DNA from: Spirochaetota bacterium
GTDB lineage: Bacteria > Spirochaetota > Spirochaetia > Sphaerochaetales > Sphaerochaetaceae
DNA: 47,299 nucleotides
Direction of reading: 5' to 3'
Assembly (NCBI GenBank): GCA_918298275.1
Contig: CAKJZO010000043.1
Location: 1 to 47,299 of the forward strand
The notes beneath the pieces are model-generated. The model searched no databases. It saw nothing but the letters and a program-made list of their open reading frames with translations, and was not told the DNA's origin. A program made the translations under genes and the position numbers. Positions within the stretch are counted from its first letter, which is position 1, and each line of letters opens with the position of its first letter. Below, piece after piece: positions 1-1,922 of this stretch.

Positions 1-690
1 ACTCTCGTGGGAGCGGGTCTGAACCGAGGTCCTGAACTTGCGTATTTCGTGCTCCGGTTCGAAGCCTCCGACGCTGACGCTTGCCCCGCATCGTCCCAGA
101 TCGGTGATATAGGCCGTGCCGCCGTCAAGGATTCGGGCATCGGCCGTCATCACCTTGCTGTGCGTACCGACCACTGCGCTGACCTTGCCCTGAAGCATAC
201 GTCCCATGGCCATCTTCTCGGCTGTCGCCGAGGCGTGGAAGACATAGAAGACAGTGTTGGTCTCGGCATGGATCTTGTTCAGCAGGACTTCGGTGCCCAG
301 AAACGGGTTGTTCAGATGCGGATTGTTGAAGTTGCACATTCCCAGGGTGTTGATTATGCAGACCTTGCGTTCCCCCACGGTGACATAGCGGACTCCGCGT
401 CCGGGAACATCCTCCGGATAGTTTGCGGGCCTGAGAATGCTGGAGCGTTTGGAAATCCCCTCGACCATGTCCAGCTTGAAGAAGGACTTCTCCCCCATGG
501 TCAGGACATCGATTCCCATATGCTGCAAGGAAAGGGCATTCTGGAAGCCCAGGCCGAACCCGCTGGTGGCGCCTTCGCCGTTTGCAATCACAAGATCCAC
601 GCCGTTTTCACGACGGTATGTCTTGAGGGCGTTCTTGATTACGCCGATTCCGCAGCGGCCCACGATCTCTCCCAGAAAAAGAACTCTCAT
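1..690 (-). CDS. YmdB/TIGR00282-family metallophosphoesterase-like protein, 3' end cut by window
   Basis: I translated the minus strand from 690; 230 codons run open to the window edge, so perhaps 30-40 C-terminal residues are missing. The whole fold pattern of the YmdB cyclic-nucleotide phosphodiesterase family is there: MRVLFLGEIVG at the N-terminus, ANGEGAT at 36-42, LRPANYPEDVPGRG at 86-99, FHASATAEK at 151-159, GTHSKVMTADARIL at 175-188. In the characterised family the metal site is D8, E39, N40, N67, H68, H150, H175, H177. Here the aligned positions are E8, E39, G40, E67, K68, H152, H177 and K179, so five of eight are changed. The protein may bind a different metal or nucleotide, or be catalytically dead. 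The -10-like TACTCT ends 6 bases before the ATG, so the mRNA is probably leaderless. Divergent from lptC. Confidence 0.85.
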   Translation of the reverse strand, partial: MRVLFLGEIVGRCGIGVIKNALKTYRRENGVDLVIANGEGATSGFGLGFQNALSLQHMGIDVLTMGEKSFFKLDMVEGISKRSSILRPANYPEDVPGRGVRYVTVGERKVCIINTLGMCNFNNPHLNNPFLGTEVLLNKIHAETNTVFYVFHASATAEKMAMGRMLQGKVSAVVGTHSKVMTADARILDGGTAYITDLGRCGASVSVGGFEPEHEIRKFRTSVQTRSHES

Positions 691-753: not shown

Positions 754-1293
754 ATGAAAGCCGGACACATGGCATGCTTATTGCTTATTGGCCTCTTTTC
801 CCTGTCCCTGACGGTTCTGACCTCATGCAAGAAGATTCCGTCCTCCATCCCCATAGGAGAACAGGAACTCCCGGACATGGTTCTCACGGACGCGAAATAC
901 ACGCTGGGTCAGGAAAAGGAGCAGCCGCTTGTGATGACGGCCTCGAAAATGACGATCTACAAGACCGACAGGGACACCGTGCTTGAAAACGTGTCGTTCT
1001 CACGGGGAACATCCCTCTCCGGCTTCTGCGCACTTGCCAGCATCAAATCCGACAACAGACATGCCGTCCTGTCCGGAAACGTCACCATCCATCAGGCCGA
1101 TTCCGACAATGACACGACGATCAGCGCTGAGGAAATCATCTGGGACGAGGACGAGAACAGCATCCTCTGCGAGGGCGAGGTCCTGGTGATATACGGGGAC
1201 GGAACCAAAATCAGGGCGGAGCGCTTCTCCGCGCTGTTCGACGAGAACAGATATGAATTCGGAAGGATAATCGAAGGAAGCTTTGAACAATGA
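754..1293 (+). CDS. lptC: LptC, LPS-export periplasmic/inner-membrane protein (lipoprotein form)
   Basis: LptC bridges the LptB-F-G ATPase at the inner membrane to LptA in transport of lipopolysaccharide. The 179-residue length matches the family. An N-terminal hydrophobic segment ends in a lipobox-like LTSCKK (Cys about 26), so this version looks lipid-anchored rather than spanning. The rest is beta-rich with the LptC/OstA-type strand repeats (DAKYTLGQ, SASKMTIYKTDRDT-like, LSGNVTIHQADS, AEEIIWDEDEN). The start at 754 gives the best lipoprotein signal; the ATG at 769 is possible, and neither has a Shine-Dalgarno sequence. The 3' end overlaps lptA by four bases (ATGA), which shows translational coupling. 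Identification rests on the pattern plus the adjacent lptA and lptB. Confidence 0.85.
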   Translation: MKAGHMACLLLIGLFSLSLTVLTSCKKIPSSIPIGEQELPDMVLTDAKYTLGQEKEQPLVMTASKMTIYKTDRDTVLENVSFSRGTSLSGFCALASIKSDNRHAVLSGNVTIHQADSDNDTTISAEEIIWDEDENSILCEGEVLVIYGDGTKIRAERFSALFDENRYEFGRIIEGSFEQ

Positions 1294-1922
1294 GAAACCT
1301 TAGGCGCACTTTTGCGATACTGATACTTGTACTGATTCTGACATGCACGCTCGATGCATCCGAGATCAGCTTCTCCGGAGGCTACACCAAGGTGAGCATG
1401 CAGCAGGGAAACCGCAGCGTGACCCTCTCCGGCGGAGCAAACGTGAAGACCGACGAGGTGGAGCTCTCCTCCGACTCCATGCAGCTCTACGGAGAGAACT
1501 ACCGCTACATCAGCTGCACCGGCAACGTAAAGGCCAGCGAGAAGGAGAACGGGATAAGCTTCAACAGCCCGGACATCTTCTACGACCGCGAAACCGGAAT
1601 AGTCAGGTCCGACAGCTGGATTGAGATCCAGGACAACAAGAACCAGGCGTCGCTGTCCGGGGCATGGTTCGAATACAACATGAAGACTTCCGTCATGAAG
1701 CTGCAGATAATGGCTCGGATTCTCAAGATAGCTGATGAAAAGCTTATGGCCTGCAGAGCTGATGACATCGAATACAACGGAAAGGAAAACACTGTCATCC
1801 TTCGCGGCAATGCTACGGTAACCTGGAAGGACGACACCTACAAGGCAGCGATGATCATAGTCGACCTGAACACGAACGACATATCTCTCTACGGATCGAT
1901 CTCGGGGGCATTCAATGGTTAA
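1290..1922 (+). CDS. lptA: LptA/OstA-like periplasmic LPS transport protein
   Basis: LptA forms the periplasmic beta-jellyroll bridge that carries LPS from LptC to LptD. The protein has 210 residues with a cleavable Sec signal (hydrophobic 9-21, cleavage near TLDAS-E). The mature part consists of OstA-type strands with the recurrent pattern VELSSDSMQLYGE / SCTGNVKASEKENGISFNSPDIFYDRETG / VILRGNATVTWKDDTYKAAMIIVDLNTND. It starts inside the lptC stop (ATGA) and its 3' end overlaps lptB by eight bases. An lptCAB cluster implies that this organism exports a lipopolysaccharide or similar glycolipid, although several well-known spirochaetes lack LPS. LptD, LptF and LptG are not in the window. Confidence 0.85.
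   Translation: MRNLRRTFAILILVLILTCTLDASEISFSGGYTKVSMQQGNRSVTLSGGANVKTDEVELSSDSMQLYGENYRYISCTGNVKASEKENGISFNSPDIFYDRETGIVRSDSWIEIQDNKNQASLSGAWFEYNMKTSVMKLQIMARILKIADEKLMACRADDIEYNGKENTVILRGNATVTWKDDTYKAAMIIVDLNTNDISLYGSISGAFNG

Follow-up and report, generated by a model that had tools for sequence, protein, structure and literature searches.

In the class Spirochaetia, canonical YmdB is commonly accompanied by a second member of the same family, the metal-binding centre of which has been rebuilt. The gene under study lies at the very start of the window (the whole stretch of 47,299 nucleotides analysed here, from a member of the Sphaerochaetaceae), and the best explanation of the data is that this paralogue, which we name YmdB-B and shorten to B in what follows, has a single origin, no later than the base of the class, and evolves separately beside canonical YmdB. 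Its site was altered long ago, is much alike across the class and is held under strong selection. We would see in it, with a probability of about 0.5 and judging from the pattern of its residues, a one-metal or metal-free protein, most likely non-hydrolytic, with a binding or regulatory role alongside canonical YmdB. Neither the fold nor the family is new; a site rebuilt throughout the class seems to be without earlier description in the open-licence literature, where titles and the beginnings of abstracts yielded no description of such a paralogue. A twin that has kept its fold during the whole history of a class, with its catalytic centre replaced, is a handle on what the YmdB family binds, and it provides a residue-level evolutionary series within one fold, from two metals to one and then to none.

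The open reading frame that encodes the protein runs past the first base of the window, where the contig ends too, so that the C-terminus of YmdB-B is absent. The features that matter here are as follows:

1..690, minus strand: YmdB-fold paralogue (YmdB-B), first 230 residues (open reading frame, Pfam match, alignment to 4b2o)
667..669, minus strand: codon of E8 (canonical D8, a metal ligand; 4b2o alignment)
571..576, minus strand: codons of E39-G40 (canonical E39-N40; 4b2o alignment)
487..492, minus strand: codons of E67-K68 (canonical N67-H68, H68 being the catalytic His; 4b2o alignment)
235..237, minus strand: codon of H152 (canonical H150, kept; 4b2o alignment)
154..162, minus strand: codons of H177-S178-K179 (canonical H175-T176-H177, the second His having become Lys; 4b2o alignment)
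754..1922, plus strand: divergent lptC- and lptA-like genes, the start of the lptC-lptA-lptB-rpoN run that adjoins B in most of the order

That the fold is kept, as a sequence-only reading of this DNA had proposed, is borne out both by the PF13277 (YmdB) profile, which matches the protein over its positions 1-225 of 253 with 257.6 bits (E 1.3e-76; gathering cut-off 27 bits), and by an AF2 model (49 sequences; pLDDT 85.7, pTM 0.84), which has the calcineurin-like YmdB fold and best matches structures of this family. Its best solved match is Bacillus subtilis YmdB (4b2o; Z 28.6, 3.8 Å over 220 residues); four solved YmdB-family proteins reach Z 26.8-28.6, and 5'-nucleotidases about 15. Canonical YmdB (4b2o, DR1281 1t70, TTHA0625 2cv9) has the fold in common with B over the whole available length, with 37-40% identity in structure-based alignment (4b2o, 1t70), and the two also share E39, H150, H175 and most glycines. 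A full-length relative of the window protein, in L034, has 273 residues, a single YmdB domain and 98% identity to it; the closest named record among the best 80 of 233 relatives, from a roe-deer rumen MAG (L337), is also 98% identical.

The metal-binding and catalytic residues of YmdB, as they are given in PMC10406935, are the eight positions compared here: D8, E39, N40, N67, H150, H175 and H177, together with H68. The window protein aligns with 4b2o without gaps to about residue 118, and a two-residue insertion shifts its numbering, so that its H152, H177 and K179 are the canonical H150, H175 and H177; canonical numbers are used below unless otherwise stated. A complete dinuclear site is not found, since five of the eight residues are replaced (D8 by E, N40 by G, N67 by E, H68 by K, H177 by K), with E39, H150 and H175 unchanged, exactly the replacements and the retained residues that the sequence-only reading had listed. 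The residues at 39, 67, 150 and 175, the positions of a one-metal site resembling that of MslH, are E, E, H and H, all of them metal-capable. Position 71, which the same source describes as pairing with the catalytic His of 4b2o, is also altered in the window protein, to Phe/Tyr, and canonical copies vary there too. E152, which canonical copies keep without exception or almost so, is lost in B, and further columns separate the two kinds, R200, G208, T42, G48 and K72 (window numbering) among them.

The rebuilt site is neither an accident of one genome nor a sign of decay. Within the order, which is that of Sphaerochaeta, 126 of 130 B copies have EEGEKHHK at the eight positions (two have EECEKHHK, the remaining two being cut short), canonical copies have DENNHHHH (31/31), and dN/dS lies between 0.026 and 0.100 in eight of nine close pairs, the ninth being saturated. 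The same letters in about 130 orthologues also rule out misalignment or sequencing error. The earlier suggestions that the metal site is altered and that the gene is not a decayed one are thus upheld, and the substitutions turn out to be clade-wide among spirochaetes, which was the principal check that the sequence-only reading had called for. None of the 217 complete B copies jointly keeps D8 and H177. A gene on its way out could be imagined from the further loss of the site and the broken matches in the g25 lineages described below, and from several Treponema-like genomes without either copy; this is hardly credible, and it is contradicted for the order of the window by the letter-for-letter conservation and the low dN/dS just mentioned.

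The 217 copies are those that remain once partial copies are left out and duplicates (identical over residues 20-180) as well as two repeat copies of the window gene are dropped, the second copy of G120 not being in the counted set. E8 is present in 215 of them, K or R at position 177 in 212, and both together in 210; position 67 is acidic in 216, and H68 is kept in a single one. The exceptions are D8 in L339, Q8 in L418, L177 in L221, Y67 in L415 and, for four copies of g25, G177. Outside the order, the residues at position 68 are diverse and include C, K, Q, R and A. The set made of an acid at 39, an acid at 67, H150 and H175 is complete in 178 of the 217 copies, that is, in 125/125 of the order set and in 53/92 of a remainder which comprises copies outside the order and loci of a wider contig scan (best 80 of 233 relatives), some of them belonging to the same order.

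Several lineages display variations of their own. Five g25 genomes (L419-L422 and L426, corresponding to G465, G477, G539, G414 and G540) have a B copy that is eroded further, reading EGMD-x-SGG with K/R177 lost, and the family match comes in pieces in four of the five; neither copy is present in G194, which belongs to the same genus and has a genome of 1.1 Mb. Both copies are present in Borrelia-like genomes (L256-L259), where B reads ENFENDGR and lies between lspA-like and murA-like genes. These Borrelia-like B copies are presumably annotated as ordinary metallophosphoesterases, in which case their function would be mis-assigned. An EEGEKHHK copy is also found in a contig labelled Candidatus Cloacimonadota (L291:612-1394), which is probably a MAG contig that was misnamed or binned wrongly.

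The genome from which the window comes holds a second PF13277 gene (G000:C38:8879-9619, 313.5 bits), with all eight residues canonical, located between rny-like and tlyA-like genes (named from sequence), a pairing that the sequence-only reading had missed. PF13277 matches occur in 137 of the order's 139 genomes, mostly two per genome. When the window protein is used as a query, B copies score 184-511 bits and canonical ones at most 167; B copies are present in 128 of the 139 genomes (129 reach the limit, G049 only via a canonical-type copy). The word canonical is defined in the site counts by the signature itself; the split between B and canonical copies is nevertheless independent of that signature, as witnessed by the separation of scores and by trees built without the eight site columns. 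In one such tree, 60 B copies make a single clade (SH-aLRT 99) and 36 canonical spirochaete copies another (96), with 12 outside sequences apart (67). In a FastTree reconstruction of 336 rows, also with the site columns removed, 220 B copies again form one clade; there, the canonical and the outside rows do not each group as a single clade, and several long branches come together. An origin of B by lateral transfer from a foreign YmdB is ruled out, as the spirochaete copies form one clade.

Co-occurrence was counted by hand in 341 genomes, which are those with a completeness of 95% or more and the genome of the window, and in this set YmdB-B and its canonical twin are almost always kept or lost together. 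Among the 206 class genomes with any match, 198 have two or more, a figure that may include a gene hit in pieces; the other eight, several of them drafts, have a single match, canonical in some and B in others, so that the two copies are not strictly inseparable. At least 20 class genomes of the 341 have no copy, another 59 of the 341 being empty as well, and some Treponema-like genomes (f3) are devoid of both copies (Treponema-like and Borrelia-like, f5, are inferred labels). Outside the class, 49 of the 56 genomes with a match have only one. In the seven that have several, four second hits are weak and lie in long open reading frames and one is a broken canonical copy; true pairs are found in G139 and G153, and also in G165. 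Pairs that are nearly class-wide, together with these few outside, place the duplication at the root of the class or a little earlier. In plasmid records outside Spirochaetota (9 of the 36 matching), eight copies are canonical and one differs by N67D only. A canonical YmdB-family gene adjoins genes for a carbohydrate-uptake transporter or a solute-binding protein in Thermus plasmids (L361, L362), and the sole YmdB of G274, a genome outside the class, is split over two overlapping open reading frames, as if by a frameshift (L391).

What such a site may do can be approached through MslH, a lasso-peptide epimerase with a calcineurin-like fold which, according to PMC10406935, holds one Ca(II) via the residues matching E39, N67, H150 and H175, those matching D8 and H177 holding no metal. 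In YmdB-B, the D8/H177 metal position would be abolished, its positive charge being supplied by Lys/Arg177, paired with Glu8; in the window protein, Lys179 would face Glu8 at the lost position, an assumed contact. The second position, made of the same four residues by which MslH binds its one metal and likewise metal-capable in B, would persist in most lineages, N67 having become an acid, and be missing in others; as 39 of the 92 copies of the remainder lack the full set of four ligands, a metal cannot have been retained throughout the class. With the D8/H177 site abolished and the proton-donating H68 gone, B should not act as a usual dinuclear phosphodiesterase, and it would act in the same process as its canonical twin. 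The altered metal chemistry evoked by the sequence-only reading fits this pattern of one site lost and one often kept; the role in sensing or hydrolysing cyclic nucleotides that it also evoked is conjectural.

A phosphodiesterase still acting on nucleotides or RNA, tolerant of these changes, is quite improbable. The fold and core motifs are kept, as are H150, H175 and E39 in the order, but, single cases apart, B has lost both the catalytic His and the whole of one metal position. Furthermore, the window protein (213 bits, for a truncated copy) falls below the NCBIfam curated cut-off of TIGR00282 (254.15), as do the five other B copies scored (160.9, 210.1, 233.7, 190.4 and 210.5), full-length ones included, whereas the canonical twin of the same genome passes it with 281.5 bits.

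The retromer protein Vps29, in which a metal-poor calcineurin-like fold serves as a scaffold, is a precedent for a non-catalytic role. YmdB-B might likewise be a pure pseudoenzyme, free of metal, its fold providing a scaffold or a subunit that could, for instance, pair with canonical YmdB and regulate it. The loss of D8, N40, H68, H177 and the nearly invariant E152 argues for this possibility, as do the absence of part of the second site in those 39 copies outside the first order set, the EGMD-x-SGG of the g25 copies, and the fact that the twins are mostly kept or lost together. We hold it as doubtful, however, for a scaffold would not need the four second-site residues that are complete in all 125 in-order copies. 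Vps29 itself is eukaryotic, unrelated to B in sequence (9-10%) and seen in weak Foldseek rows.

A mononuclear enzyme that hydrolyses its substrate would equally fit the constancy of H150 and H175 in those 125 copies. One may go further and imagine an active enzyme with a new chemistry, resembling that of MslH, in which the remaining metal, Lys68 and Glu8-Lys179 would perform acid-base chemistry on a new substrate. Compared with MslH as described in PMC10406935, K68 and K177 coincide in position with its two His-Asp acid-base pairs, and E39, 67, H150 and H175 with its metal ligands; the near invariance of EEGEKHHK in the order goes in the same direction. Yet K68 is kept only in the order and some sister families, and B as a whole resembles MslH only weakly (Foldseek E about 3e-4, TM 0.50-0.53): MslH has extra domains, keeps His at 68 and 177 and is about 10% identical to B, which consists of a single YmdB domain without the architecture of MslH. 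No lasso-peptide gene was seen near B, the identified neighbours being lpt genes or RseC. Such an enzyme seems unlikely. In B. subtilis, canonical YmdB controls the choice between motility and biofilm, and PMC6123443 gives its physiological substrate as not identified.

In the neighbourhood of B, the gene that follows on the same strand is that of RseC for 157 of the 198 B copies with at least 600 bases downstream (105/122 in the order, 35/55 in the class, 17/21 in the wider contig set, best 80 of 233 relatives), and it never follows canonical copies (0/67). Its identity was assessed with PF04246 on seven examples, six of which score above the cut-off. The surroundings differ between lineages, the order having lpt-rpoN and other groups CheB/CheR or TPR genes, so that the pair of B and RseC is itself conserved. 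A speculative proposal, to which we give little credence, is that Lys/Arg stands in for one metal and that, in Sphaerochaetaceae, a one-metal site flanked by two lysines would perform acid-base chemistry or sense a ligand in a manner unlike known YmdB, its gene often standing immediately before that of an RseC-type redox membrane protein. RseC as an obligatory partner is rejected, since B without RseC and RseC without YmdB both occur: a PF04246 match is absent from the draft genome of the window, from its near relatives G127, G130, G134 and G135 (drafts, 73-93% complete), from G077 (99% complete) and from four Borrelia-like genomes, although B is present in every one of these; G208, G229 and G249, for their part, have RseC and neither kind of YmdB.

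The arrangement of B. subtilis, where ymdB lies beside rny, is seen with the canonical copy of Cytobacillus; B differs from canonical YmdB in this respect, with no rny beside it in the window sequence, where one side is visible. The CheB/CheR-like neighbours found outside the order evoked a link with motility, which was dropped because Sphaerochaeta, which are not known to have flagella, keep the B gene. The place of RseC after B is taken by a serine-dehydratase-like gene in the nearest relative (L034:158-1372) and by a thioesterase-like gene in L035 (2285-2728), both named by eye from sequence.
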